A DNA stretch of 12,647 nt from Acidobacteriota bacterium (lineage in GTDB: Bacteria > Acidobacteriota > Terriglobia > Acidiferrales > UBA7541), in assembly GCA_003131705.1 (NCBI GenBank), contig PKUY01000416.1:8607-21253 (forward strand). Reading direction: 5' to 3'. A model generated the notes under the pieces. It had not been told where the DNA came from and made no database searches. It worked only from the letters and a program-made list of their open reading frames with translations. Shown in pieces: positions 455-12,647 of this stretch. Every line of letters starts with the position of its first letter. Position 1 is the first letter of the stretch. Made by a program: the position numbers and the translations under genes.

Positions 455-496
455 TTCGTGAATTCCGCGGCAGGCCGCGCGGAGCCGCGGCCAATC

Positions 497-1732
497 ATGG
501 CGGAAAATAAAAAACGCAATACGGTCATTCTAATTCTTCTCGCCGGGCTCGTGGTGCTCGTCATCACGGTATTCGCCTTGCGCCGGCAGCCACCGGTGGT
601 GCCGGTTCTGAGCGTTACGCGCGAGGATCTGAACGTGACCATCGCCAGTAACGGCAAGGTCGAACCGCTTTCCCCGGCAGTTGCCCACGCAGAATTCCCG
701 ACATTCGTTGAGAAAGTGGTGGCGACCGAGGGCCAGACGGTCCATGGTGGCCAAGTGATCCTGACGCTCGATGCGGCCGAAATTCGCTCGCAGCTCGCGC
801 AGGGGCGCGCCGATCTGCTTGCCGCGCAGAACGATTTGCGAAATGCGCGCGCGGGAGGTCCGCCGGACCAGGTGGCTCAGCTTCAGGGCGATTTGCAGGC
901 CGCGCAGTTGCAGGTTGCCAATCTCGAACGCACAGAGAACTCACTCGAAGTTCTCGTCGCCAAACACGCAGCGACACAGGATGAACTTGCGCAGAACCAG
1001 GCGAGCCTCGCAAAAGCGCGCGGAAATCTTCAGGCGCTGGAAGCACGCAAACAGGATTTGACGCAGCGCTCGTCTGTGAATGTCGAAGCAGCGAACCTTC
1101 GCGTCAGCCAGACGAAGGAGCAGGTCCAATCGCTCGAAGAAAAGTTGCTGTCCGCAACCGTTACGGCTCCTACTGATGGCACGTTATATTCGCTCCCGGT
1201 ACATCGTGGCGACTACGTGAAGGTAGGTGACACGCTCGCCGAGATGGCAGATCTGCGCCATGTGCGTGTTCGCGCTTTTGTTGACGAGCCCGATCTTGGT
1301 TTGCTCGAGCCGAACCAGAACATCGAAGTGACGTGGGACGCAAAGCCGGGGATTACCTGGAAGGGCCGCACCGAGCAGGTGCCGAAACAAGTAGTCGCGC
1401 GCGGGATGCGCAGCGTGGGTGAAGTTCTTTGCTCGGTCGACAACGGCCGTCTGGAGTTGTTGCCGAATATAAACGTGCAGGTTCGGATCATGGTTCGCGA
1501 GCTGCACGGAGCCCTGGTCATCCCCCGTGCCGCAGTGCGCGAAGATAATGGTCAGCGCTATGTGTTCGTGTTTCAGGGCAACACGGTTCGCCGTCGGGAC
1601 ATCTCGGTAGGAGTTGCTAGCGCATCGAAGTACGAAGTCCTGTCCGGTTTGACTACGGCCGACCGAATCGCGGAGCCGGCCGACCTCGAGCTGATGGACG
1701 GTATGGAAGTTCGCCCCGGGGAGGTAAATTGA
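497..1732 (+). CDS. Membrane-fusion (periplasmic adaptor) protein, HlyD/MacA-like
   Basis: This is the periplasmic adaptor of a tripartite exporter. It links the inner-membrane permease to the TolC-type outer-membrane channel encoded downstream. From the ATG at 497 it has 411 residues. A single membrane anchor spans residues 8-28. The first half of the lipoyl-like (barrel-sandwich) domain lies at about 68-92 and contains VVATEGQTVHGGQVILTLD. A long coiled-coil hairpin rich in Ala, Gln, Leu and Glu runs at about 97-217. The second lipoyl half follows (about 218-253: TVTAPTDGTLYSL then VKVGDTLAEMADL), then a beta-barrel (about 254-335) and a membrane-proximal domain (about 336-411: VIPRAAVRED). 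An in-frame GTG at 458 would add 13 residues, but it lies upstream of the predicted transcription start and the residues look non-coding. The spacing of GGAG (481-484) to the ATG is long at 12 bases. The substrate cannot be read from the sequence. Confidence 0.88.
   Translation: MAENKKRNTVILILLAGLVVLVITVFALRRQPPVVPVLSVTREDLNVTIASNGKVEPLSPAVAHAEFPTFVEKVVATEGQTVHGGQVILTLDAAEIRSQLAQGRADLLAAQNDLRNARAGGPPDQVAQLQGDLQAAQLQVANLERTENSLEVLVAKHAATQDELAQNQASLAKARGNLQALEARKQDLTQRSSVNVEAANLRVSQTKEQVQSLEEKLLSATVTAPTDGTLYSLPVHRGDYVKVGDTLAEMADLRHVRVRAFVDEPDLGLLEPNQNIEVTWDAKPGITWKGRTEQVPKQVVARGMRSVGEVLCSVDNGRLELLPNINVQVRIMVRELHGALVIPRAAVREDNGQRYVFVFQGNTVRRRDISVGVASASKYEVLSGLTTADRIAEPADLELMDGMEVRPGEVN
1718..1724 (+). 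promoter_or_regulatory. Ribosome binding site deciding a TTG start
   Basis: GGGGAGG lies 4 bases before TTG at 1729-1731, inside the end of the adaptor gene. The TTG overlaps that gene's TGA stop (TTGA), so translation of the two is probably coupled. Confidence 0.7.
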
Positions 1733-2772
1733 CCGAACCATTGCGCGAATTAGCCGGAAGGATTGGGAACGTAATCTTCGCTGTTCTCTTCGCAGCTATA
1801 ATTTTCGCGAAGTCTGCGCCACAGCCGGCTCTTGCCGCAGCAGCCCTGCCGGACGCGTCGGGTGCGATCCAGGCAGCCCAGCGTCAGTTCAATTTGGGGA
1901 AGTACGCCGCCGCAATTTTGACGCTGCGATCCGCCGTGGCGCAAAATTCTTCGAGCGCCGAAGCGTATTACTGGCTAGGGCGGTGCTACTACGAAACCCT
2001 CGATTACGACAATTCGGCCGATCAGCTGGAAAAAGCTGTCTCGCTCGATCCCAGGAATTCCGTGTATCACCAGTGGCTCGGCCGCGCCTATGGAGGCAAG
2101 GCGGACCGCGACAGAAGCTTCTCCATGGCGAAAAAGGTGAAGAAGGAGTTTCAAACCGCCGTCAACCTGAATCCGTCGAATGTTGCTGCGCGCCGCGACC
2201 TGGAAGAATATTTGATCGATGCGCCGTGGATCGCGGGTGGCAGTAAGGATGACGCGTTGGAGCAGGTGAATGCTATCGCCGCGCTCGACCCCATCCAGGG
2301 CCATCTAGCACGCGCGCTCTACGATCGCGAAGGCATGAAGAAACTCGACGAAGCCGAAACTGAACTTCGACAGGTGCTGAGCGCGAAGCCGAAAACAGCG
2401 GATCCGTATTTCGAGATCGCGGAATTTTATCAGACCCAGAACAAACCATCTGACCTGATGGCGGCCATCGACGCCGCAGCGCAGGTGAGCCCGAACGATT
2501 CGCGGCTGACATATTATCGCGGCATTGCTGCGGTGCTTTCGAACACGAACCTGCCCCGCGCCGAGCAAGATTTTAAGTCGTATCTGGCCAGCGCGCCGGA
2601 CCTCAGCGACTGGCCCCCGCACGCTGCCGCGCGCGAGTGGCTAGGCAGGCTCTATGAACTGCAGGGGAATCGCACGGAGGCAGCGGAGCAATATCGCGCC
2701 GCGCTGCAACTGGAACCTAAGCGCAAGGAAGCGCGCGCGCGGTTACAGAAACTCGAAAAGAGCTCGCAGTAG
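1729..2772 (+). CDS. Secreted tetratricopeptide-repeat protein
   Basis: This is a 347-residue protein with an N-terminal hydrophobic signal at about residues 13-38 (core VIFAVLFAAIIFA, then PALAAAA), so it is probably periplasmic or membrane-anchored. The rest is a chain of tetratricopeptide helices. Clear repeats are at about 43-110 (AEAYYWLGRCYYETLDYDNS, then LEKAVSLDP) and 297-345 (REWLGRLYELQGN, then YRAALQLEP). More diverged repeats occur at about 135-150, 205-260 and 275-290. TPR domains bind proteins and there is no catalytic signature. The TTG start is favoured because it follows a strong ribosome binding site and overlaps the stop of the adaptor gene. Its place between adaptor and permease suggests it assists that exporter, perhaps as a scaffold or in delivering substrate; this is inference. 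The internal region around residues 165-175 (PWIAGGSKDDA) resembles a loop seen in other TPR chaperone-like proteins, but I cannot name a closer family. Confidence 0.85.
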   Translation: MTEPLRELAGRIGNVIFAVLFAAIIFAKSAPQPALAAAALPDASGAIQAAQRQFNLGKYAAAILTLRSAVAQNSSSAEAYYWLGRCYYETLDYDNSADQLEKAVSLDPRNSVYHQWLGRAYGGKADRDRSFSMAKKVKKEFQTAVNLNPSNVAARRDLEEYLIDAPWIAGGSKDDALEQVNAIAALDPIQGHLARALYDREGMKKLDEAETELRQVLSAKPKTADPYFEIAEFYQTQNKPSDLMAAIDAAAQVSPNDSRLTYYRGIAAVLSNTNLPRAEQDFKSYLASAPDLSDWPPHAAAREWLGRLYELQGNRTEAAEQYRAALQLEPKRKEARARLQKLEKSSQ

Positions 2773-2782
2773 GGAAGCATCG

Positions 2783-2808
2783 CGGTCCCTCTGGACTTTA
2801 TTTTATTG
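2783..2808 (+). terminator. Very weak hairpin plus T-rich run between TPR and permease genes
   Basis: GTCC (2785-2788) and GGAC (2793-2796) form a 4-bp stem with a CTCT loop, extendable by one G-T pair. It is followed directly by the T-rich stretch TTTATTTTATT. It could cause partial termination between the TPR gene and the permease gene, which are 98 bases apart, but the stem is short and the call is tentative. I see no good promoter in the same gap. Confidence 0.2.
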
Positions 2809-2870
2809 CAATGGCGGTATCCGATGGTGTGGTCCTGAAACGCTGAATTTCTGGTTAAGGCGTCACCTGC

Positions 2871-4115
2871 ATGTCAATCACGCGCAATACATCGGCATTC
2901 TGGGGCGAGACGTGGCAACTCGCCATGCAAGCGTTGCGCGCCAACAAGATGCGCGCGATGCTGACAATGCTCGGCGTCATCATCGGCAGCGGTTCTATCG
3001 TTCTGGTGGTCACCGTCGCTCTGGCGGGGAAGCGTTACATTCTCTCGCAGATTGAAAGCGTCGGAGCAAACCTGGTCTATGCCACGGTTGTTAATTCGAC
3101 TGACTCCGAGTCTCTAAACCTCGCGGACCAGATTACGCCTGCAGATCTGGCGGCCGTGAAGGCCGATCTTCCGCGATTGATCGTCCGCGCGGCGGGGACC
3201 AACACTTTGCCGATGAATATAACCGTCAACGGCGAGGAACATCTCATCAATCTGGTTGGCGTTACCGAAGGCTTCGACGGTATTCGCAACCTCGAAATCC
3301 TTCACGGGCGCTATTTCGACGAAGACGATCACGCCTCGCGGGGCAAGGTGTGTCTGCTTACCCAAGATCTCGCGCGGCGCGTATTTCCTTCCGAGAATCC
3401 GGACAACAAGGATATTCGTATCGGCGAGCTTCACTTCACGGTGATCGGCGTCTTCAAAGAACGTGTCGCCGGCCTCGGTCAGACGGAGATTACGCACCAG
3501 TCCGCGATTATTCCATTCTCACTGCTGCAATACTACACGGGCACGGATCACTTTAAGACGCTCTACGCGCAAGCGGACCGGCCGGAAGACGTCCCTATCG
3601 TCACGCGGCAGGTCGCGGAGATTCTTCACGGCCTCCATCGACCAGGCGCCCAGTACCGCGTGCAGAATCTGACCGGCATTTTGGAGACGGCGCGGAATAT
3701 TGCGCTGGCGCTCACGGTTGTGCTGATTCTGATCGCGCTGATTGCGCTCGTCATCGGCGGCATCGGCATCATGAACATCATGCTCGTGACCGTTACCGAG
3801 CGAACGCGCGAGATCGGAATTCGCAAGGCGATTGGCGCGTCGGGAGACGCTATACGCTACCAGTTCCTCATGGAGGCGACAGCCATCAGCGGAACAGGCG
3901 CGCTTGCCGGGATCGGCATTGCCGTCGCCATTCCAGCCCTGCTCAATTTTTCGCTCGGGTTTTTTCCGGAGGCGGGCGACATTCACGTTCCGGTGTCATG
4001 GATCTCAGTCGTGCTAGCGTTCGTAGTATCCTGCTCCACGGGCCTTGTGTTTGGTTATCTTCCCGCCAATCGCGCGGCAAGGATGCAACCAACGGAAGCG
4101 CTTCACCATGAATAG
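2871..4115 (+). CDS. MacB/FtsX-type ABC transporter permease without a fused ATPase
   Basis: This is a four-helix type VII ABC permease of 414 residues, the inner-membrane component of a mechanotransmission exporter. Helix 1 is at about 28-52 (MLTMLGVIIGSGSIVLVVTV). A large periplasmic domain follows (about 55-272, the MacB_PCD region). Helices 2-4 are at about 276-306, 332-362 and 374-396. The conserved coupling segment after helix 2 is clear: GIGIMNIMLVTVTERTREIG, then IRKAIGAS, at about 297-324. The C-terminal end GYLPANRAARMQPTEAL is also typical. E. coli MacB carries its ATP-binding domain on the same chain (about 650 residues); here that domain is absent, and no ATPase gene is in the window. 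The ATG is preceded by TAAGG (2856-2860) at 10 bases, a modest ribosome binding site. It works with the adaptor and the TolC-type channel on either side. The substrate is unknown; macrolides, peptides, lipids and siderophores are all handled by this family. Confidence 0.9.
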   Translation: MSITRNTSAFWGETWQLAMQALRANKMRAMLTMLGVIIGSGSIVLVVTVALAGKRYILSQIESVGANLVYATVVNSTDSESLNLADQITPADLAAVKADLPRLIVRAAGTNTLPMNITVNGEEHLINLVGVTEGFDGIRNLEILHGRYFDEDDHASRGKVCLLTQDLARRVFPSENPDNKDIRIGELHFTVIGVFKERVAGLGQTEITHQSAIIPFSLLQYYTGTDHFKTLYAQADRPEDVPIVTRQVAEILHGLHRPGAQYRVQNLTGILETARNIALALTVVLILIALIALVIGGIGIMNIMLVTVTERTREIGIRKAIGASGDAIRYQFLMEATAISGTGALAGIGIAVAIPALLNFSLGFFPEAGDIHVPVSWISVVLAFVVSCSTGLVFGYLPANRAARMQPTEALHHE

Positions 4116-4169
4116 CGGCGTGAGTCGCGTTGTGAACCGTCCCGCGAGCAACCCGCGAGACAAGAGCCA

Positions 4170-5510
4170 ATGACTCAATTTAGACCGACCATCCTGATTT
4201 TCGCTGGAGTGCTCCTGGCACTTCTCGCGGCCGGCCCTGCTCGCTGCCAGAGCGCCGCAGCGAGCTCCGAAACATTGACGCTGCAGCAAGCGGTGACTCT
4301 CGCTTTGCAGAACAGCCGCGACGTCAAACTCGCCCAAGTGCAATACAACGTCGCGCTCGGCGAAGTCGGCGTGGACCGCGCAGCGTTCCGGCCCAATCTG
4401 TACACAGGGTCGGGAGCAGCCTACACCCACGGTTTCCCGTCGCTACCCGGTGGTAACGCCCCGGCCGTCTTCCAGATGGACTACACCCAGACGCTGTTCA
4501 ATCCATTGCTCAAGGGCGAGCAGCATGCGGCCGAGGATCGTGCGAAGAATCAAAGACTCCAGCTCGATCGGACGCGCGACGACGTCATTGTCCGCGCGGC
4601 CACAGCCTATCTCGATCTGGCGAAGGTCCGGCACTCGCTCGATTTGATGCGCAGCGAGCAGGCCAGCGGAGCGAAGATCCTCGAAGCGATCCGCGAACGG
4701 CTTGCGGCGGATCAGGAGCTTCCCATCGAGGTCACGCGAAGCCAACTAGCGCTGGCGCGCGTGCAGGAACGCGTGGTGAAGCTGGAGAACCGTGAAGGCG
4801 AACTCGACGCGCAGCTTCGCGATCTGGCGGGCATTCCAGACAGCCAGTCGATCCGGGTGGAAACGGACGAGCCCGCCTTTTCTGCTGAGCTTGCCGCCGA
4901 CGTTGCCGCCGTCCGGGCTGAAAGCGAGATGGTGGATCTCGCGATGAAGAACGACCGCAGCATTGAGGAAGCCGATAACGAGCGCATGGCGCGCGAGCAG
5001 CTTTTGCGAGGCGCGAAATTGAGTTACTGGCCCACCGTCGACCTCGTCGGTGAGTACAGCATCTTGAGCAAGTTCAATAACTACGGCGAGTTTTACAAGA
5101 AGTTCGAACGCAACAACGTCAACATCGGCGTGCAGGTGACCATTCCTCTGTTTGCCGCGAAAACCTCCGCAAACGTAGCCTTGGCCAAGAGCCAACTGAC
5201 CGCTGCCGAGCTAACGCTCGGCAACAAGCGGCAGGAAGTGCGTCTCGATGTGCTGCTGAAGGCCCGCAGTGTGCGCGAGGTGGATGCCAGCCTTGAGGTC
5301 GCGCGCCTTGATCTCCAACTCGCGCAGGAAACCCTTCAACTCGCACAGGCCAGGTTCGACCAGGGGCGTGTGACCCTGCAGGAAATCGAGCAGGCGCATG
5401 TGGACGAGAACGACAAATGGATGGCCTTTCTGGATGCCGATTTCGCCCGCCAGCACGCCCAGCTCACTCTCTTGCAGGCCACCGGACAACTGGCAAAGGT
5501 CTTCCACTGA
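4170..5510 (+). CDS. TolC-family outer-membrane efflux channel
   Basis: This 446-residue protein has a signal peptide (about residues 1-26: hydrophobic ILIFAGVLLALLAA, cleavage near PARCQS). The cysteine is not in a good lipobox, so this is probably an ordinary signal-peptidase I substrate. The mature protein shows the two outer-membrane-efflux repeats of the TolC family. The first opens with LTLQQAVTLALQNSRDVKLA (about 36-55), and the second begins near residue 250 with similar long amphipathic helices. The C-terminal part has QETLQLAQARFDQGRVTLQE (about 390-409) and ends with LLQATGQLAKVF, as usual in the family. It forms a trimeric barrel and periplasmic tunnel that completes the exporter with the adaptor and permease upstream. 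The gap from the permease is 54 bases, and a weak AAGAG (4162-4166) precedes the ATG. It is very probably co-transcribed. No intrinsic terminator is evident after the stop. Confidence 0.9.
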   Translation: MTQFRPTILIFAGVLLALLAAGPARCQSAAASSETLTLQQAVTLALQNSRDVKLAQVQYNVALGEVGVDRAAFRPNLYTGSGAAYTHGFPSLPGGNAPAVFQMDYTQTLFNPLLKGEQHAAEDRAKNQRLQLDRTRDDVIVRAATAYLDLAKVRHSLDLMRSEQASGAKILEAIRERLAADQELPIEVTRSQLALARVQERVVKLENREGELDAQLRDLAGIPDSQSIRVETDEPAFSAELAADVAAVRAESEMVDLAMKNDRSIEEADNERMAREQLLRGAKLSYWPTVDLVGEYSILSKFNNYGEFYKKFERNNVNIGVQVTIPLFAAKTSANVALAKSQLTAAELTLGNKRQEVRLDVLLKARSVREVDASLEVARLDLQLAQETLQLAQARFDQGRVTLQEIEQAHVDENDKWMAFLDADFARQHAQLTLLQATGQLAKVFH

Positions 5511-5540
5511 GCTAGATAGGGGAAACACTACCAGAAAATC

Positions 5541-5569
5541 TTGGGGGCACGTGCGAAATCGAGTAGAAT
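5541..5569 (+). promoter_or_regulatory. Promoter candidate for the hpnJ operon
   Basis: TAGAAT (5564-5569, five of six -10 bases) lies 17 bases after TTGGGG (5541-5546, three of six -35 bases). This would start transcription near 5576, about 50 bases before hpnJ. The spacer contains the 8-bp palindrome GCACGTGC (5547-5554), which could be an operator; no regulator is identified. Confidence 0.4.
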
Positions 5570-5625
5570 AAACGAGTTGATGCCGTTAGCTATCTTAGTT
5601 TTTATTTCTGAGGGGTGGTGAACGC

Positions 5626-7146
5626 ATGGCGTCTGTCATGAAGACTCTTTTGGTGAATCCGCCAAGTTTCGAAAAATTTGACGGCGGTGCGGGCTCCCGC
5701 TGGCCCGCTACCCGTGAGATCGAGTCCTACTGGTACCCGGTCTGGCTCGCGTATCCCGCGGGCATGTTGCCCGGCAGCCGGATGCTGGACGGCCCTCCGC
5801 ACCATATCACTCCGGCCGAAGTCATCAGCATCTCGCACGATTATGAATTTGTCGTGCTGTTCACCTCGACGGTGGGTTTTCTCGCCGATCTGCGCATGGC
5901 TCGCGGTATGAAGGAGAAGAAACACGATATTAAGATCTGTTTCGTGGGCCCGCATGTGCAGATCAAGCCGGCGGAGAGCCTGCTGGCGAGTTCCGATCTT
6001 GATTTCGTCGTGCGCGGGGAATTCGACCACGCCGTCGTGGAATACGCGCAGGGAAAACCTCTCTCGGAAATCGCGAATGCGAGTTACGTGAAGGACGGAA
6101 AAATCGTCCACAATCCGTCGCGTCCGCTGATGCAGACCGAAGAACTTGACGCGCTTCCATTTGCGACCGAGGTATATCAGAAGAACATCCAGATCGAAAA
6201 ATACAACGTGCCATTCCTCCTTCATCCGTTCATTTCTTTCTACACCGCGCGAGGTTGTCCGGCGCTTTGCACGTTCTGCCTGTGGCCCCAGACGCTGTCC
6301 GGCCACGCCTGGCGCACGCGTTCGGTCGAAAGCGTCGCGCGCGAATTCAAGCAGGCGCACAAGATGTTTCCGCAGGCCAAGGAATTTTTCTTCGACGACG
6401 ACACGTTTAACATCCGCAAGGATCGCGTCGTCGCGCTCTGCAAGGAATTCAAGCCCGTGGGTTTTCAGTGGTCGTGTACGGCCCGCGTGCACGGAGACTA
6501 CGAAACGCTCAAAGCCATGGCTGATGCAGGCTGCCGCTTGCTGATTGTCGGCTTTGAATCCGGCGACGCCCAGATTCTTAAGAACATCAAGAAGGGCCAG
6601 ACGCTCGAAATGGGCCGCAACTTCGTCAAGAACTGCAAGAAGGTCGGCATCCACGTCCACGGCGACTTCATCATCGGTCTTCCGGGCGAGACGAAAGAAA
6701 CCATCGAGAGGACCATTAATTTTGCGAAGGACCTCGATTGCGAAACTATCCAGGTTTCGATGGCCCACGCGTATCCCGGCACCGAGCTGTACGATCAGGG
6801 CACGCGCGAAGGTTTCCTCGCAGGCGAAGCGATCACCGACGACGGCGGCCACCAGCTTCCGCACCTCGAATACCCCGGCCTCTCTAAGGAATACATGGTC
6901 GAGTCGGTCAACCGCTTTTACGACAGTTACTACTTCCGTCCGAAAGTTGCCTGGCGCATCGTTCGCGACTCGCTGTGGGACGGACACGAACGCAAGCGTC
7001 TCTATCATGAAGCTGTGGATTTCTTGAAACTTCGTGCGGATCGCCGGAAGGTTGCGAAGGCGAGTGGCGGCGTCGACAAGAAAGCCATCGTTTCCGTGCC
7101 GTCAATGAACGGGCAATCGGAAGTTGGTGAGTCGCAAGGCGCATGA
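5626..7146 (+). CDS. hpnJ: Hopanoid radical SAM enzyme HpnJ (cyclitol ether formation)
   Basis: HpnJ is a B12-binding-domain radical SAM enzyme. In characterised bacteria it is needed to turn the glucosamine headgroup of bacteriohopanetetrol into the cyclitol ether, after HpnI adds the sugar and HpnK deacetylates it. The protein has 506 residues. The N-terminus carries the signature I associate with this family (KTLLVNPPSF, then DGGAGSRWPATREIESYWYP). A cobalamin-binding-type domain spans about 60-180 (FVGPH at 106-110, DFVVRGE at 126-132). The iron-sulfur motif CxxxCxxC is C211, C215 and C218, inside YTARGCPALCTFC. A radical SAM barrel follows with GFESGD and HGDFIIGLPGET, then AYPGTELYD near residue 388. 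The tail from about 470 is Lys/Ser/Gly-rich and looks poorly conserved. The ATG at 5626 is preceded by GGTGGTGA (5614-5621) at 4 bases; the ATG at 5638 is an alternative. It overlaps the next gene by 4 bases (ATGA). Confidence 0.88.
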   Translation: MASVMKTLLVNPPSFEKFDGGAGSRWPATREIESYWYPVWLAYPAGMLPGSRMLDGPPHHITPAEVISISHDYEFVVLFTSTVGFLADLRMARGMKEKKHDIKICFVGPHVQIKPAESLLASSDLDFVVRGEFDHAVVEYAQGKPLSEIANASYVKDGKIVHNPSRPLMQTEELDALPFATEVYQKNIQIEKYNVPFLLHPFISFYTARGCPALCTFCLWPQTLSGHAWRTRSVESVAREFKQAHKMFPQAKEFFFDDDTFNIRKDRVVALCKEFKPVGFQWSCTARVHGDYETLKAMADAGCRLLIVGFESGDAQILKNIKKGQTLEMGRNFVKNCKKVGIHVHGDFIIGLPGETKETIERTINFAKDLDCETIQVSMAHAYPGTELYDQGTREGFLAGEAITDDGGHQLPHLEYPGLSKEYMVESVNRFYDSYYFRPKVAWRIVRDSLWDGHERKRLYHEAVDFLKLRADRRKVAKASGGVDKKAIVSVPSMNGQSEVGESQGA

Positions 7147-7556
7147 AGTCGCAGGAAGGCCTGCACCTCAAGACCATCGTCCTGATCGTGATCATGGTCT
7201 CGGTCGCGCCGCTGGGCGATATGTTCCTCGGTAAGGGCATGAAGGTCATATCCCCGATGGCGAGCTGGGCGCCGGGCGATATTTTCCGTTTTTTCTTTCA
7301 GGCATTTACGTCTCCCACGATATGGCTCGGCATCGGGCTGCTGCTAGCTTTCTTCATCGCGTACATGATTGTTCTTTCCTGGGCTGACTATAGTTACGTC
7401 CTGCCCGCATCGTCGATTTCTATTTTGGTGGTCGCGCTGCTTGGCTATTTCGTGCTCCACGAAGTGGTCAAACCCACTCGCTGGGCGGGCGTGGCGATCA
7501 TTTGCCTGGGCGTATTTACCGTAGGCCACACATCGCCGCGGACTACGGAGCTTTAG
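7143..7556 (+). CDS. Small four-helix DMT/SMR-like transporter subunit, first of a pair
   Basis: This 137-residue membrane protein has four predicted helices, at about 10-29, 58-80, 84-104 and 111-128. Its size matches half-transporters such as EmrE or ArnE/ArnF rather than ten-helix EamA proteins. Helix 1 contains GDMFLGKGMK (25-34). This aligns without gaps to the helix of EmrE bearing the essential acidic residue Glu14, with Asp26 in its place here. The C-terminal half has the EamA/SMR signature: SYVLPASSIS (84-93), then LHEVVKPTRWAGVAIICLG (105-123). The ATG overlaps the hpnJ stop (ATGA), indicating translational coupling. It is homologous to the next gene, so the two probably form a heterodimer. 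From the family and context it may flip a lipid-linked or glycosylated hopanoid intermediate across the inner membrane; that substrate is inference. Confidence 0.8.
   Translation: MKSQEGLHLKTIVLIVIMVSVAPLGDMFLGKGMKVISPMASWAPGDIFRFFFQAFTSPTIWLGIGLLLAFFIAYMIVLSWADYSYVLPASSISILVVALLGYFVLHEVVKPTRWAGVAIICLGVFTVGHTSPRTTEL
7547..7550 (+). promoter_or_regulatory. Ribosome binding site deciding a GTG start
   Basis: GGAG lies 5 bases before GTG at 7556-7558. That GTG shares one base with the TAG stop of the preceding gene (7554-7556). It favours this start over the ATG at 7502, whose extra 18 residues are polar and unlike the partner protein. Confidence 0.65.
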
Positions 7557-7936
7557 TGGTGGTCACGAAATTCGTTTTTTACTTCCTGATTATTTTTCCC
7601 GGCACGTGCGGCGAAATGTGCGTTTCGCGCGCAATGAAGACCGTTGGCGAAGTCACGGACTTCAGTCCGCGTGCGATAGCCAGCGTGATCGGTCGCGCCA
7701 TGAAGGTTCCCTGGTTCTGGATCGGCCTGACGATGATGACGGCGGGCTTTTTTTCGCTGCTGGGAATGCTGTCGCTCGCCAACGTGAGCTTCGTCTTTCC
7801 CGCCACCGCGCTCAGCTACGCCGTAGGCACTCTCGGCGGCAAATTATTTCTCGGCGAGCGAGTCACTCCCCAACGCTGGGTCGGCGTTGCGCTGGTTTGC
7901 GTGGGTGTGGCCCTGGTCGTGATCGGCAAGGGCTAG
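7556..7936 (+). CDS. Small four-helix DMT/SMR-like transporter subunit, second of a pair
   Basis: With the GTG start this protein has 126 residues and four predicted helices, at about 4-22, 53-75, 78-98 and 107-124. Helix 1 contains GEMCVSRAMK (19-28). This lines up with GDMFLGKGMK of the preceding protein and with the Glu14 segment of EmrE; Glu20 is the equivalent residue. The second half, SFVFPATALSYAVG (78-91) and ERVTPQRWVGVALVCVG (101-117), is clearly homologous to the partner, including the PxRWxGVA motif. The pair therefore arose by duplication and probably acts as a heterodimer, as ArnE and ArnF do for a lipid-linked amino sugar. A longer frame from an ATG at 7502 exists, but it overlaps the partner by 55 bases and lacks a good ribosome binding site. 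It is followed after 18 bases by hpnI in the same operon. Confidence 0.8.
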   Translation: MVVTKFVFYFLIIFPGTCGEMCVSRAMKTVGEVTDFSPRAIASVIGRAMKVPWFWIGLTMMTAGFFSLLGMLSLANVSFVFPATALSYAVGTLGGKLFLGERVTPQRWVGVALVCVGVALVVIGKG

Positions 7937-7954
7937 CGTACGAAGGATTCCCTA

Positions 7955-9133
7955 ATGACTGGCTGGACGGCGGTTCGCGAGGCGCTCCTCCTTCTGGCAC
8001 TCGCGCCGTTCGCCTACTATCTGCTCGCGATATTCGCGGCAGGGCGATTTTTCCGCAAAAGAGTTTCCATCCCTTCCGATGTTGCGTCCGAGTTCACTCC
8101 ACCCGTCAGCATTCTGAAACCGATTCGCGGGCTCGACCGCGAAACCTGCGAAAACTATGCAAGTTTCTGCCTGCAAGATTATCCGGCGTTCGAGATTCTT
8201 TTCTGCGTGTCGGACGATTCCGACCCTGCGATTCCGGTCATTGAAAAACTCATTCGCGATTTCCCGAAGCGCGGCATCCGTCTGTTGATTGGCTCGGAGC
8301 CCCTTGGCGCGAGCGACAAGGTCAACAAACTTTGCCGGATGGTTCGCGAGGCAAAGCACGACATCGTAATCGTGAGTGACAGCGACGTGCGCGTCGATCC
8401 GGGTTTCTTGCGCGCCGTGGCCGCGCCGTTTCGCGATCCCAAAGTCGGCGGCGTCACCTGTCTTTATCGCGGCCTCACCGACGGCTCCTTCGCTGCCGAT
8501 CTGGAAGCCATTGGCAACAGCACGGATTTTGCGCCGGGCGTTCTGGTCGCGTGGCTCCTCGGTGGGCGCAGTTTGAACTTCATGCTCGGCGCCGTGATGG
8601 CAACCACCAAAAAACATCTCGCCGAAATCGGCGGATTCGAATCGCTCGTGGATTATTTTTGCGACGACTACGAGCTCGGCAACCGCATCGCAGCACGCGG
8701 CTATCGCATCGAGCTCAGCTGCTTTCCCGTGGACATCGTTTACCCGCGAGAAACGATTGGCAGCGCGTTTCGCCACCAGGTTCGCTGGAATCTGAGCATT
8801 CGCTATTCGCGCTTCTGGGGCCATCTCGGCTTGATTTTCACGCAGGGGCTCGTTTGGTCCTTGGTGGGCCTGTTTCTTGCACGGTCTTGGCCTGCGGTTT
8901 TCGCGTTCACGGCGGGATATTCCTTGTTGCGCTACGAAGTGGCGCTCAGCGTCGGCGCGCGGGGGATGGAAGACAAACTCGTGAGGCGGAAACTGCAGAT
9001 GCTGCCGCTGCGCGACGCCTTCGCATTCGTCGTGTGGCTCGCAAGCTTCTTCCCGCAGCGCATCCACTGGCGCGACCGCGAGTTCTACGTCAGCGAAAAA
9101 CGCCTCATCCCGATGCCGCCGCGCCAGTCTTAG
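7955..9133 (+). CDS. hpnI: Hopanoid glycosyltransferase HpnI (GT21, ceramide glucosyltransferase-like)
   Basis: HpnI transfers N-acetylglucosamine from UDP-GlcNAc to bacteriohopanetetrol in the cyclitol ether route, at the cytoplasmic face of the inner membrane. The protein has 392 residues. It shows an N-terminal membrane helix (about 8-30), a family GT21 catalytic domain (about 48-290) and hydrophobic C-terminal segments (about 292-330 and 353-368). The catalytic landmarks are in the order and spacing known for ceramide glucosyltransferases. They are CVSDDSD (84-90), SDSDVRVDP (141-149), the third acidic motif DDYELG (237-242) and HQVRW (274-278). The last corresponds to the (Q/R)xxRW motif but has His in first place. 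KPIRGLD (55-61) and GGFESLVDYFCDD (226-238) are also typical. AAGGA (7943-7947) precedes the ATG by 7 bases. It is the last gene before a terminator candidate. Ceramide glucosylation is a possible alternative, but the neighbouring hpnJ favours the hopanoid role. Confidence 0.85.
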   Translation: MTGWTAVREALLLLALAPFAYYLLAIFAAGRFFRKRVSIPSDVASEFTPPVSILKPIRGLDRETCENYASFCLQDYPAFEILFCVSDDSDPAIPVIEKLIRDFPKRGIRLLIGSEPLGASDKVNKLCRMVREAKHDIVIVSDSDVRVDPGFLRAVAAPFRDPKVGGVTCLYRGLTDGSFAADLEAIGNSTDFAPGVLVAWLLGGRSLNFMLGAVMATTKKHLAEIGGFESLVDYFCDDYELGNRIAARGYRIELSCFPVDIVYPRETIGSAFRHQVRWNLSIRYSRFWGHLGLIFTQGLVWSLVGLFLARSWPAVFAFTAGYSLLRYEVALSVGARGMEDKLVRRKLQMLPLRDAFAFVVWLASFFPQRIHWRDREFYVSEKRLIPMPPRQS

Positions 9134-9207: not shown

Positions 9208-9214
9208 AGAAGCA

Positions 9215-9238
9215 GGTCGCGCGTTTGCGGCCTTTTTT
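9215..9238 (+). terminator. Intrinsic terminator candidate after hpnI
   Basis: GGTCGC (9215-9220) pairs with GCGGCC (9227-9232) as a 6-bp stem with one T-G pair and a GCGTTT loop. Six T residues follow (9233-9238). This is the classical rho-independent form and would end the hpnJ-hpnI transcript about 100 bases after hpnI. Confidence 0.6.
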
Positions 9239-9255: not shown

Positions 9256-9330
9256 TGGGAGGTCGTACAATTGGCAGTACATCAGATTCTGGATCTGATT
9301 ATCCTGGTTCGAGTCCAGGCCTCCCAGCCA
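9256..9330 (+). tRNA. tRNA-Gln, anticodon CTG
   Basis: The 75-base gene folds fully. The acceptor stem pairs TGGGAGG (9256-9262) with CCTCCCA (9320-9326), followed by discriminator G and an encoded CCA. The D stem is GTAC/GTAC with an AATTGGCA loop. The anticodon stem TCAGA/TCTGA encloses TTCTGGA, giving anticodon CTG for codon CAG. The T arm is CCTGG-TTCGAGT-CCAGG. The acceptor sequence and the G discriminator agree with bacterial glutamine tRNAs, whose E. coli form also begins TGGGG and ends CCCCAGCCA. Confidence 0.96.
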
Positions 9331-9400: not shown

Positions 9401-10720
9401 TCAGCTCCCGCTGAAATCCGCTTGTTTCAGCGGCCGGACGAGGAGCGTGAGGGCGAAGCCTACCACGAGAAAGCATGCGAGCACGCGCAGCGGCTGATCG
9501 TAGATGTGGACTCGACTTTCTCCGGGCGCGAGCGCAGCTTTGGCGCGCTCGGAGAGCTGCGTGATGATCACGGGTCCCACAACGGCTGCAGCGCTCCACG
9601 CCGTCAGCAGCGCGCCGTGAATCGCACCCACGTTATCTTCGCCGAAGATATCCGCGAGGAAAGCGGGAACGGTTGCAAAACCTCCGCCGTACATCGTGAA
9701 CACCGTGAAGATCGCAATCTCGAACGGCACCCACGAGCCGTTCGCGGCGAAGGTCGGGATTAGCAGGAAGAGCGCGACCTGCACAATGAAGAACGTGAGA
9801 TACGTATTTCGACGGCCAATATAGTCCGATAGAGAAGCCCAGAAAAAGCGCCCCCCTGCGTTAAACAGACTGATGATCGAGACAATCGCTCCGGCTTCGA
9901 GTGCCGTCTTGCGGAACAGGTCCTGCATCATGGGCGAGGCCTGAGCGAGAATCCCGATTCCCGCCGTGACGTTGACAAACAAGATGCCCCACAGCAGATA
10001 GAACTGCACCGTACCCAGCGCGTCGTTGCGGCTCACGCTACGGGCGGTGATCATCTTGTTGGTGCGCATGGAAGGAGTCCACCCGGCAGGTTTCCAGTTT
10101 GGCGGTGGCCGGCGAATGATGCGTGCGCCGATCATCATGATGATGAAATATGTGACGCCGAGAACCATCATCGTGCGCGCTACGCCAAAAAGGCCCATAC
10201 AGTAGACATTCAAGTAGCCCGCGAGAAACGCTCCTCCGCCAAAGCCCATGATGGCCATTCCCGTCGCCATCCCGCGCCGGTCCGGAAACCATTTTACGAG
10301 CGTGCTCACCGGCGAAATGTAGCCCAGCCCGCAGCCGATTCCCCCAATGAGCCCCATGCCGATCCACACCAGCACCGATTGGTGGATCGCCAAGCCGAGG
10401 CCTCCGATGACGAGTCCGCTGCCGAAGAAAAATGCCGCAGCGGTCGCGGCCGCGCGCGGACCGCGCCGCTCGACCCAAGGTCCGCCGACCGCGGCGCTCA
10501 ACCCAAGCAGGACAAGCGCCGTCGTGAAGGTCGTGTAGGGAGGACTGAACCACCAGGGTGAAGTGGGGAAGATCGCTTTGATCGGGCGATTGAACGTGCT
10601 CCAGGCGTACACCGAGCCGATGCAAATGTGAACGGCTACGGCCGCGACCGGAATCAGCCAGCGATTGAAAGCCGGTACAGCTTCTGCCTGCGCAAGCCCA
10701 GCAGTCTGCGGTGTCGCCAC
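9401..10720 (-). CDS. OFA-family major facilitator transporter
   Basis: This is a twelve-helix MFS carrier of the oxalate/formate antiporter (OFA) family, 439 residues from the GTG at 10720. It moves small organic acids across the inner membrane; the exact substrate cannot be read. Family features include HICIGSVYAWSTFNRPI (31-47) in helix 1 and the motif-A-like ERRGPR (84-89) between helices 2 and 3. GIGCGLGYISPVSTLVKWFP lies at about 127-146, with DRRGMATGMAIMGFGGGAF just after it. The central linker RRPPPNWKPAGWTP (203-216) is typical of the family, and SDYIGRRNT (298-306) is the second-half motif A. An ATG at 10834 would add 38 residues with no hydrophobic or family-like character. The GTG start is preferred because GAGGAG (10729-10734) lies 8 bases before it and the protein then begins just ahead of helix 1. 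It is convergent with the tRNA and divergent from the AsmA gene. Confidence 0.88.
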   Translation of the reverse strand: MATPQTAGLAQAEAVPAFNRWLIPVAAVAVHICIGSVYAWSTFNRPIKAIFPTSPWWFSPPYTTFTTALVLLGLSAAVGGPWVERRGPRAAATAAAFFFGSGLVIGGLGLAIHQSVLVWIGMGLIGGIGCGLGYISPVSTLVKWFPDRRGMATGMAIMGFGGGAFLAGYLNVYCMGLFGVARTMMVLGVTYFIIMMIGARIIRRPPPNWKPAGWTPSMRTNKMITARSVSRNDALGTVQFYLLWGILFVNVTAGIGILAQASPMMQDLFRKTALEAGAIVSIISLFNAGGRFFWASLSDYIGRRNTYLTFFIVQVALFLLIPTFAANGSWVPFEIAIFTVFTMYGGGFATVPAFLADIFGEDNVGAIHGALLTAWSAAAVVGPVIITQLSERAKAALAPGESRVHIYDQPLRVLACFLVVGFALTLLVRPLKQADFSGS

Positions 10721-10728
10721 GAAAACGT

Positions 10729-10734
10729 CTCCTC
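10729..10734 (-). promoter_or_regulatory. Ribosome binding site deciding the GTG start of the OFA transporter
   Basis: GAGGAG on the minus strand lies 8 bases before GTG at 10720. A second purine-rich AGGTGA (10735-10740) sits directly upstream. Confidence 0.65.
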
Positions 10735-10751
10735 TCACCTGATGTTTGAGA

Positions 10752-10782
10752 TCTATGCCAGAAATGTTCAGACTGCGGTCAA
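10752..10782 (-). promoter_or_regulatory. Weak promoter candidate for the OFA transporter
   Basis: On the minus strand TTGACC (10777-10782, five of six -35 bases) is followed at 19 bases by CATAGA (10752-10757), a poor -10 with three matches. The -35 is good, but the spacing and the -10 are not, so this is tentative. Confidence 0.28.
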
Positions 10783-11020
10783 CATCCTCGGTGATTTGTG
10801 CGCCACTGATAACACGAAAGCTGGTCGGAAACAAACTCGAATTGGAGAAAAATGGCGCTCTGATGTTCCCGAATTCTCATCATCGCGTTACACAACTGAC
10901 AAACTAAAGTCCGCGTCGGTCAAGTGAAGAAAAGGCAAGCATTTCCTCACTTGTGCTGCTTTCTTGAATTTGCTGCTGGCGAGTCCATGCCTCCGAGCCA
11001 ACTTCTTCGCGGAAACTTTC

Positions 11021-11119: not shown

Positions 11120-12647
11120 ATGAAGAAAATTCTCATCATCGTCGGGATCGTTGTCGCCGTGTTGCTCGTCATCGTGATCGCGCTGCCGTTTGTCATTGAC
11201 GTGAACCGGTTCAAGCCGACTCTGGAAACCGATCTTACAACCGCGCTTAACCGCAAAGTTGAAATCGGAAATATCGAGCTTTCGATACTCTCTGGTGGAG
11301 TGAAGATAGACAACGTGGTGATCGCTGACGATCCTGCTTTTAGCGCATCGCCTTTCCTGCAGGCGAAGCAACTTACCGCGGGCGTGGCGCTCTTCCCCTT
11401 GATTTTTTCGAAGAAGCTCGAGGTCAGTTCTTTCACCGTAACTGAACCGCAGGTTTCGCTCCTACGCTCCGCTGGCGGAAAATGGAATTACTCGAGCCTG
11501 GGCGTTGCAGGACCTAAGAAAACGGATACGTCCTCGCCGACGGATTTCTCCGTGCAAAAACTGACGCTTTCCAATGGCACGATTGTCGTCGGCACGACCG
11601 GCGCGCACGGCAAGACGCAAACGTACCAGAGCGTGAACCTCGAGGCATCCGACCTCTCCTATATCTCGCAGTTTCCTTTCAAGTTCTCTGCAAAAACTCC
11701 GGGTGGCGGCGATGTAAAAATTCAAGGGAAGGCCGGCCCCATCGATTCCGCCGACGCTTCGCTCACGCCCCTTGACGCCACGATTGGCGCCGAGAATGTG
11801 GATTTGGCTTCCACCGGATTCGTCGATTCGTCTTCCGGTATCGCCGGAGTGGTCGATTTTCACGGCAATCTTACGTCCGACGGCCATCAGATGACTTCGA
11901 AGGGCACGGTCAAAGCCGAAAAGATTAAACTTGTCCCTGCGGGCGCGCCTTCCAAGGTTCCTGTTAACCTCGATTACGACACGAGCTACGATTTGAAGAG
12001 CCAGAAGGGTGACCTGAAGCAGGGCGACGTCCACATCGGCAAGGCACTGGCTCATCTCACAGGCGTGTATGAAACCGCTGGCGCCACCACAAATGTGCAA
12101 ATGAAGATGACCGGGCAGGGAATGCCCGTGACGGATCTTGAGGGCGTATTGCCGGCTGCCGGAGTCCTTCTTCCGTCCGGCGCGTCGCTTCAGGCCGGCG
12201 CTCTCAATTTGAGCCTCGCGATCAGTGGGCCGGCCGATAAGCCGGTAATAAGCGGACCCGTGAATCTTTCGAACGCCAAGCTCGCCGGTTTCAATTTGAA
12301 ATCAAAACTCGGAGCGCTTTCTTCATTCCCAGGGCTCGGCGGGGGAGGCGGCGGCTCGGACACGGAGATCCAGTCGCTCAGCACGGACCTTCGCGTGGAT
12401 TCCGAAGGGACCCATGCGAATAATTTGAATATTGTTGCGCCCTCGATCGGAACGGTCACTGGCAACGCGAACGTCAGTCCGAACAATCAGCTCAATTGCA
12501 AGATGTCCGCAAAACTTGCGGGCGGCATCGGCACGGTAACTTCGGCGCTCTCATCTTTCGGGGGCGGCGGGAAATCGAACGGGGGCGGCATTCCGTTCAC
12601 CGTCACCGGCACGACATCGAATCCTATCTTCCTTCCGGACGTCGCCG
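11120..12647 (+). CDS. AsmA-family protein (incomplete at right edge)
   Basis: The frame is open from the ATG at 11120 to the window edge (509 codons), with no stop or frameshift. A single N-terminal membrane anchor at about residues 3-25 (ILIIVGIVVAVLLVIVIALP) places the rest in the periplasm. The AsmA N-terminal domain follows: VNRFKPTLETDLTTALNRKV (28-47), the SGGVKIDNVVIADDPAFS region (58-75), and VTEPQVSLLR then GGKWNYSSL (107-127). This Pro and Trp-Asn pattern is typical of the family. The later part is a long beta-rich region with AsmA_2-like character. It has two glycine-rich linkers, each after the sequence ALSSF, at about 399-412 and 476-490. AsmA/TamB/YhdP-type proteins act in outer-membrane biogenesis and probably in lipid transport across the periplasm. 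A role in moving hopanoids would fit the neighbourhood, but this is only inference. The C-terminus is not seen. Confidence 0.86.
   Translation, partial: MKKILIIVGIVVAVLLVIVIALPFVIDVNRFKPTLETDLTTALNRKVEIGNIELSILSGGVKIDNVVIADDPAFSASPFLQAKQLTAGVALFPLIFSKKLEVSSFTVTEPQVSLLRSAGGKWNYSSLGVAGPKKTDTSSPTDFSVQKLTLSNGTIVVGTTGAHGKTQTYQSVNLEASDLSYISQFPFKFSAKTPGGGDVKIQGKAGPIDSADASLTPLDATIGAENVDLASTGFVDSSSGIAGVVDFHGNLTSDGHQMTSKGTVKAEKIKLVPAGAPSKVPVNLDYDTSYDLKSQKGDLKQGDVHIGKALAHLTGVYETAGATTNVQMKMTGQGMPVTDLEGVLPAAGVLLPSGASLQAGALNLSLAISGPADKPVISGPVNLSNAKLAGFNLKSKLGALSSFPGLGGGGGGSDTEIQSLSTDLRVDSEGTHANNLNIVAPSIGTVTGNANVSPNNQLNCKMSAKLAGGIGTVTSALSSFGGGGKSNGGGIPFTVTGTTSNPIFLPDVA

Follow-up and report, generated by a model that had tools for sequence, protein, structure and literature searches.

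Which protein takes polar hopanoids across the inner membrane is a question that the hopanoid literature consulted answers with no assigned protein, the function of HpnL being unestablished (PMC12583986; this and the other papers cited were available as partial texts). The question is raised in concrete form by a 12,647-nucleotide stretch of an Acidobacteriota genome (GCA_003131705.1, contig PKUY01000416.1, positions 8,607 to 21,253), hereafter the window, in which two genes for small membrane proteins, here called s1 and s2, are encoded between the hopanoid headgroup genes hpnJ and hpnI. We propose, with a probability of about 0.55, that s1 and s2 are the halves of a heterodimeric flippase of the small multidrug resistance (SMR) type for the HpnI/HpnJ product, in the slot that HpnL often holds elsewhere. 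A pair in the HpnL position is a concrete, testable candidate for the crossing of headgroup-bearing hopanoids, and it ties a biomarker pathway to the well-studied SMR transporter fold.

According to open reading frame calls and a reading of the sequence, the four genes lie on one strand (+) at positions 5626-9133. hpnJ (5626..7146) encodes a B12-binding radical S-adenosylmethionine (SAM) enzyme that acts in making the hopanoid headgroup (cyclitol ether) and scores 709.4 bits against an equivalog cut-off of 577.6 (TIGR03471) and has both its Radical_SAM and its B12-binding Pfam domain above cut-off. It is followed by s1 (7143..7556, 137 aa) and s2 (7556..7936, 126 aa, with a GTG start at 7556), each the gene of a small SMR/DMT-like protein with four transmembrane (TM) helices, and by hpnI (7955..9133), for a family 21 glycosyltransferase (bacteriohopanetetrol GlcNAc transferase) that passes its equivalog cut-off narrowly (TIGR03472, 323.5 bits against 310; Glyco_transf_21, 146.3 bits). 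The pair is thus flanked by headgroup enzymes that both stand above cut-off. The first-pass annotation had described a packed operon with overlaps of 4 bases (hpnJ/s1) and 1 base (s1/s2) and a gap of 18 bases between s2 and hpnI, and this layout proved exact to the base.

The two small proteins are not easily placed in a curated family. Pfam EamA (PF00892) gives 22.2 bits for s1 and 27.2 for s2, under the gathering threshold of 28.2 and over the second half of the domain only; Pfam Multi_Drug_Res (PF00893) has no match anywhere in the window genome, and a sequence search of solved structures with the s2 alignment returned only weak matches (NIPA2 and the CMP-sialic acid transporter, E 0.011 upward). 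By curated cut-off the proteins are not ArnE/ArnF, to which the pair had first been likened: s1 (23.6 bits) and s2 (33.3 bits) both fall far under the NCBIfam ArnE cut-off of 92. An SMR fold is predicted for both proteins, each with four TM helices, and it is the same fold as that of EmrE and Gdx-Clo at an identity of 10-15%. In 32 aligned pairs (that of G163 was omitted, its proteins being identical to those of G094; here and below, G numbers stand for genomes and L numbers for loci), the Arg/Lys bias has a mean of -7.4 in s2 (negative in 32 of 32) and of +1.3 in s1 (21 positive, 8 even, 3 negative), so that the two biases are opposite on average.

An acidic residue in TM1 is also a regular feature of these alignments, with D or E in 32/32 rows of s2 and in 24/32 of s1, the remaining 8 having N. 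Its identification (D26 in s1, E20 in s2) with the central glutamate of SMR proteins, which an M-K motif would presumably fit, was dropped nonetheless, because the first aligned residues of the superpositions put it about one helical turn off. SMR proteins that handle lipids often have Asn at the central Glu (PMC9574504); the acid kept throughout s2 is unlike the Asn of many of these, in a comparison for which the equivalence of the two sites is not established.

Is this arrangement peculiar to one contig? HpnJ was searched for in 247 genomes of the phylum; 38 have a match at E<=1e-100, which in 35 is above the TIGR03471 cut-off, and wider stretches of the 37 other loci were mapped with profiles built from the proteins of the window and of its relatives. 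In 33 of the 38 genomes the pair is found downstream of, and on the same strand as, hpnJ, at a distance of up to 200 bp in 23, of 0.8-1.5 kb in 9 (with hpnK inside in five) and of 7.9 kb in one; in 27 of these 33 loci the s1 and s2 genes share 4 bp. At E<=1e-8 the s1 profile matches exactly twice in 28 of the 38 hpnJ genomes, whereas 6 have three or four matches and 4 have none; together with the linkage in 33/38, these counts indicate a pairing beyond chance. The linkage is retained over five families (f1, f2, f3, f33 and f51) while the outer flanks change. The gene mapped next after the pair is hpnI in 8 of the 33 loci, in one of them (L047) with 733 bp between. Five genomes of one family have the order hpnJ-hpnK-s1-s2, with hpnI as the next mapped gene in four of these, and G096, G123 and G165 show the full order hpnJ-hpnK-s1-s2-hpnI.

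Five hpnJ genomes have no pair in the stretch mapped, G208 (taken up below) among them. G195 has its pair on a separate contig, with hpnE and squalene synthase-type genes as neighbours; G029 and G192, with an HpnJ of proteobacterial type, are without the pair, as is G030, whose HpnJ-like protein is remote and under cut-off (346.9 bits). The operon with the pair is lineage-wide, and the survey supports a lasting partnership with hpnJ within the Acidobacteriota, in keeping with the earlier suggestion of a dedicated pair beside hpn genes; against its exclusiveness stand four genomes discussed below, in which a related pair occurs without hpnJ or a cyclase.

What occupies the corresponding position in other bacteria? 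HpnL is a membrane protein of proteobacterial hpn clusters with no established function (PMC12583986). It stands beside hpnI-hpnJ-hpnK in Burkholderiaceae and others much as the pair adjoins hpnJ, but it belongs to a separate family of 318 profile positions, annotated as a lysylphosphatidylglycerol synthase domain protein. A scan of genome contigs with the HpnJ alignment, restricted to the best 80 of 541 relatives as ranked against the proteobacterial-like HpnJ of G029, yielded loci from Proteobacteria together with one Gemmatimonadetes, one Rokubacteria and one plain "bacterium". None of these 80 loci has the pair beside hpnJ according to the pair profiles, and an HpnL profile built here finds HpnL in the flanks of 31. 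In Mycetohabitans, hpnI-hpnJ-hpnK is followed by an HpnL-type protein, and Paraburkholderia also shows HpnL beside hpn genes. In the window genome, which is fragmented and 81% complete, the HpnL profile (TIGR03476) has no match at E 0.001, and HpnL was on this ground rejected as its flippase. Among the 38 hpnJ genomes no HpnL match exceeds the cut-off, and a clear signal is confined to G029 (111.7 bits, directly after hpnK) and G192 (72.3 bits, where a contig begins); neither of these has the pair, and the HpnJ of each is of the proteobacterial type. A tree of HpnJ from 37 of the 38 genomes (G103 omitted), 19 loci of the outside set of 80 and two loci on plasmids groups these two with the outside rows (SH-aLRT 94) and joins 34 others in one clade (97), with G030 apart.

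Among the closest known systems is ArnE/ArnF, the SMR-family flippase of undecaprenyl phosphate-aminoarabinose and a reported glycolipid flippase (PMC9574504). There as here, adjacent genes encode two small proteins of four TM helices in a lipid headgroup operon, with an SMR fold that is predicted in our case; the neighbours of s1 and s2 are, however, hopanoid enzymes and not Arn enzymes, and the ArnE cut-off is missed. HpnN, an RND-type transporter of hopanoids to the outer membrane (PMC12583986), would likewise serve hopanoid trafficking, but it is a large protein (862 profile positions). A related observation is already in print: the hopanoid cluster of Leptospirillum ferriphilum includes an EamA-like protein whose role is not given (PMC12654047). 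It shares with s1 and s2 the EamA family and a clustering with glycosyltransferase, B12-binding, radical SAM and squalene-hopene cyclase domains, and it differs in that a single such protein is named, known by description, with kinship to s1 and s2 not established. Leptospirillum has hpnI and hpnJ, and EamA is not mentioned in the available part of that report (PMC7231039); the EamA gene of PMC4990936 has no tie to hopanoid genes in the text available. If the L. ferriphilum protein is related to s1 and s2, the hopanoid link would reach another phylum. The present analysis supports the first-pass interpretation of the window in part and widens it to a lineage-wide pair in the HpnL position, SMR-like yet outside the curated ArnE family.

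Within the Acidobacteriota, strain KBS83 has been described with two additional genes between other clusters and hpnJ (PMC5462960), and these may be the s1-s2 pair; the accessible portion of that paper makes no mention of a transporter, EamA, hpnL, hpnN, flippase, permease, efflux or multidrug protein. For the two-gene pair as such, no description was found in the partial texts consulted on hopanoid HpnI/HpnJ/HpnL, EamA and SMR flippases (PMC8886135 included), and a printed account elsewhere is possible.

How, then, could the pair work? HpnI presumably uses a sugar nucleotide, and the domains of HpnJ are of the radical SAM and B12-binding types. The headgroup should thus be a product of the cytoplasmic side: enzymes that depend on sugar nucleotides and SAM would act at the cytoplasmic leaflet. 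With a paired SMR-type protein encoded at the headgroup step, flipping of the product would most simply be its role. We infer that s1 and s2 would assemble as an antiparallel SMR-type heterodimer and flip the HpnI/HpnJ product, a bacteriohopanetetrol whose headgroup is an amino sugar or a cyclitol. The lipid would leave the cytoplasmic leaflet, arrive in the outer leaflet of the inner membrane and pass on from there to the outer membrane; the pair would thereby occupy the operon slot often filled by HpnL in Proteobacteria. A dedicated translocation step had been suggested for this operon at the outset, and the predicted SMR fold and the opposite average charge biases fit such a paired flippase; the linkage is not strictly hopanoid-specific.

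The exact headgroup is uncertain, as the window genome is without an HpnK above cut-off. Bacteriohopanetetrol is acted on successively by HpnI, HpnK and HpnJ (PMC12583986). Acidobacterial strains of subdivisions 1 and 3 (SD1 and SD3) have hpnI and hpnJ without hpnK, and Chloracidobacterium thermophilum B, a producer of the cyclitol ether, has all three genes (PMC5462960). The HpnK profile matches to some degree in 38/38 hpnJ genomes (partially in G192 and G030) and exceeds its cut-off in six. The window genome encodes elsewhere an HpnK-like YdjC protein (L126, 3410-4270, +) with 224.5 bits against a cut-off of 232.6, and YdjC proteins of this kind, away from hpnJ, occur in most hpnJ genomes.

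Besides the lack of an HpnK above cut-off, several observations weigh against a hopanoid flippase in the HpnL slot. The s1 of the window itself has a charge bias of -1 and thus no opposite sign to s2. G208 has an acidobacterial-type hpnJ and hpnI with no match to the pair; a contig end as the cause was ruled out, because the sequence runs through from hpnJ to hpnI and encodes between them an unrelated protein of 281 aa (L074, 1102-1947, -) with no Pfam or NCBIfam match, which is perhaps a third occupant of the slot. Weak HpnL matches are present away from hpnJ in the pair-bearing G095 (36.4 bits) and G063 (21.9 bits). Moreover, the mutual exclusion of HpnL and pair follows one split of the HpnJ tree, that is, one or two events; it is a property of two HpnJ lineages and not many independent tests. 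Outside the phylum, HpnL is not in the flanks of 49 of the 80 loci, in some because the contig ends, and all 80 lie near the proteobacterial HpnJ type and say little on acidobacterial-type HpnJ elsewhere. A whole-genome search of 50 of the 80 outside genomes found pair-family matches in 17, mostly weak singles; G260, however, has a two-gene pair and G251 a strong single, both off the hpnJ contig stretches obtained. Finally, four genomes of the phylum (G215, G169, G201 and G074) carry a related pair with no match to hpnJ or squalene-hopene cyclase at the thresholds used, and the neighbours tested around these pairs (L110-L113) include no hopanoid or lipid gene.

These four genomes speak for another reading, which we consider unlikely: that the pair flips a different glycolipid, either a sugar carried on polyprenyl phosphate or a lipid other than a hopanoid made by an HpnI-family glycosyltransferase, its proximity to hpnJ reflecting shared regulation of envelope lipids. 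Relatives in lipid-sugar settings agree with it, as in G249, where a distant one is flanked by an ArnT-type transferase and a DegT aminotransferase, followed by a GT2 gene, in an Arn-like operon, and in G251, where one adjoins a PMT_2 protein; at five outside match sites that were inspected, the only hpn signals are weak matches to the hpnI profile (24-30 bits). A second pair in G233, at some 5 kb from an HpnI-like gene that scores under the cut-off (299.3 bits against 310), points the same way. However, when the s1 profile was run over the same 247 genomes, where 70 matched at E<=1e-8 (up to 16 candidates were scored per genome, and weak copies may escape), E<=1e-42 was reached only by the s1 of 34 hpnJ genomes and by this G233 copy; 33 of the 34 are linked to hpnJ, and the last to hpnE and squalene synthase-type genes. 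Next in score come the pairs of G215, G169, G201 and G074, and after them five single genes. Squalene-hopene cyclase, found in 63/247 genomes overall, is present in 36/38 hpnJ genomes and in 5/5 of the single-gene clade (G203, G037, G235, G066 and G196). In four of these five (L116-L119), which are without hpnJ, the single gene lies 0.4-0.9 kb downstream of an above-cut-off HpnI; the one in G066 shares its contig with the cyclase, at a distance of about 5 kb. The remaining 27 genomes have weaker s1 matches (best E 4e-20 to 1e-11, mostly of family f24), with a cyclase in G246 only. In L116 and L119, hpnI has the single SMR/DMT-like gene on one side and a 2-hydroxyacid dehydrogenase gene on the other.

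That the pair is an exporter of small cations or drugs like EmrE or Gdx-Clo, merely travelling with hopanoid genes, appears improbable. The shared predicted fold and the frequent TM1 acid would suit it, but the low identity, the lack of any Multi_Drug_Res match and the different operon setting set the pair apart from these cation exporters, its linkage to hpnJ is kept across five families with changing flanks, and some of its relatives are located with lipid-sugar enzymes. Very improbable in our view is a membrane anchor or partner subunit that joins HpnI and HpnJ without transporting anything: the tight packing with hpnJ and hpnI in the window and the proximity to hpnJ in relatives would be expected of it, but the predicted transporter fold and the charge pattern speak against it, and in 25 of 33 loci the pair is not followed by hpnI as the next mapped gene, HpnI being encoded elsewhere in such genomes.

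The flippase proposed here could be one part of a larger unit, as four genes precede hpnJ on the same strand. They encode an HlyD/RND-type periplasmic adaptor (458..1732; TIGR01730, 152.2 bits against 94.9), a tetratricopeptide repeat (TPR) protein (1729..2772; TPR Pfam families) that overlaps the adaptor gene by 4 bases and recurs beside it in relatives, a MacB/FtsX-type permease without an ATPase domain (2871..4115; MacB_PCD 113.2 and FtsX 68.4 bits, no ABC_tran) and, directly upstream of hpnJ, a TolC-type outer-membrane factor (4170..5510; OEP 127.6 bits). In 25 of the 38 loci hpnJ has a TolC-type gene upstream of it and on its strand, a count that includes L058 (2.2 kb off) and L053 (7.7 kb off) and excludes a more distant gene in L040; 20 of these also have an HlyD gene. 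The permease stands between the TPR and tolC genes on the same strand only in the window and G095, and on the opposite strand a permease match occurs in three loci (G121, G073 and G084); no ABC ATPase was found among the contig genes scanned. HpnN is not above cut-off in any of the 38 hpnJ genomes, which have weak partial matches only, the best two in the pair-less G029 and G208, and an export role for the upstream block is therefore thinkable on the basis of linkage. Doubtful, though worth stating, is the idea that 458-9133 is one acidobacterial unit for hopanoid headgroups and export, in which HpnI and HpnJ would decorate the lipid, s1-s2 would flip it in place of HpnL, and the adaptor, TPR, permease and TolC proteins would take the part of HpnN and carry it to the outer membrane. 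HpnL and the pair would in that case be two unrelated solutions to one step, and HpnL would gain its missing function.

Downstream of hpnI, a terminator-like hairpin with a T tail (9214..9233, +; 8 pairs, then TTTTTGTTGT) is a consensus match only, in a region with 11 such sites against 6.1 expected, and a tRNA-Gln gene follows (9256-9330). A major facilitator superfamily protein (9404-10834, -), matching the NCBIfam L-lactate transporter (345.3 bits against 320), is convergent with the hpn genes. AsmA-like proteins are linked to envelope lipid transport in other bacteria, and the start of an AsmA/DUF748-type protein (11120-12646, +) closes the window and extends past its end.

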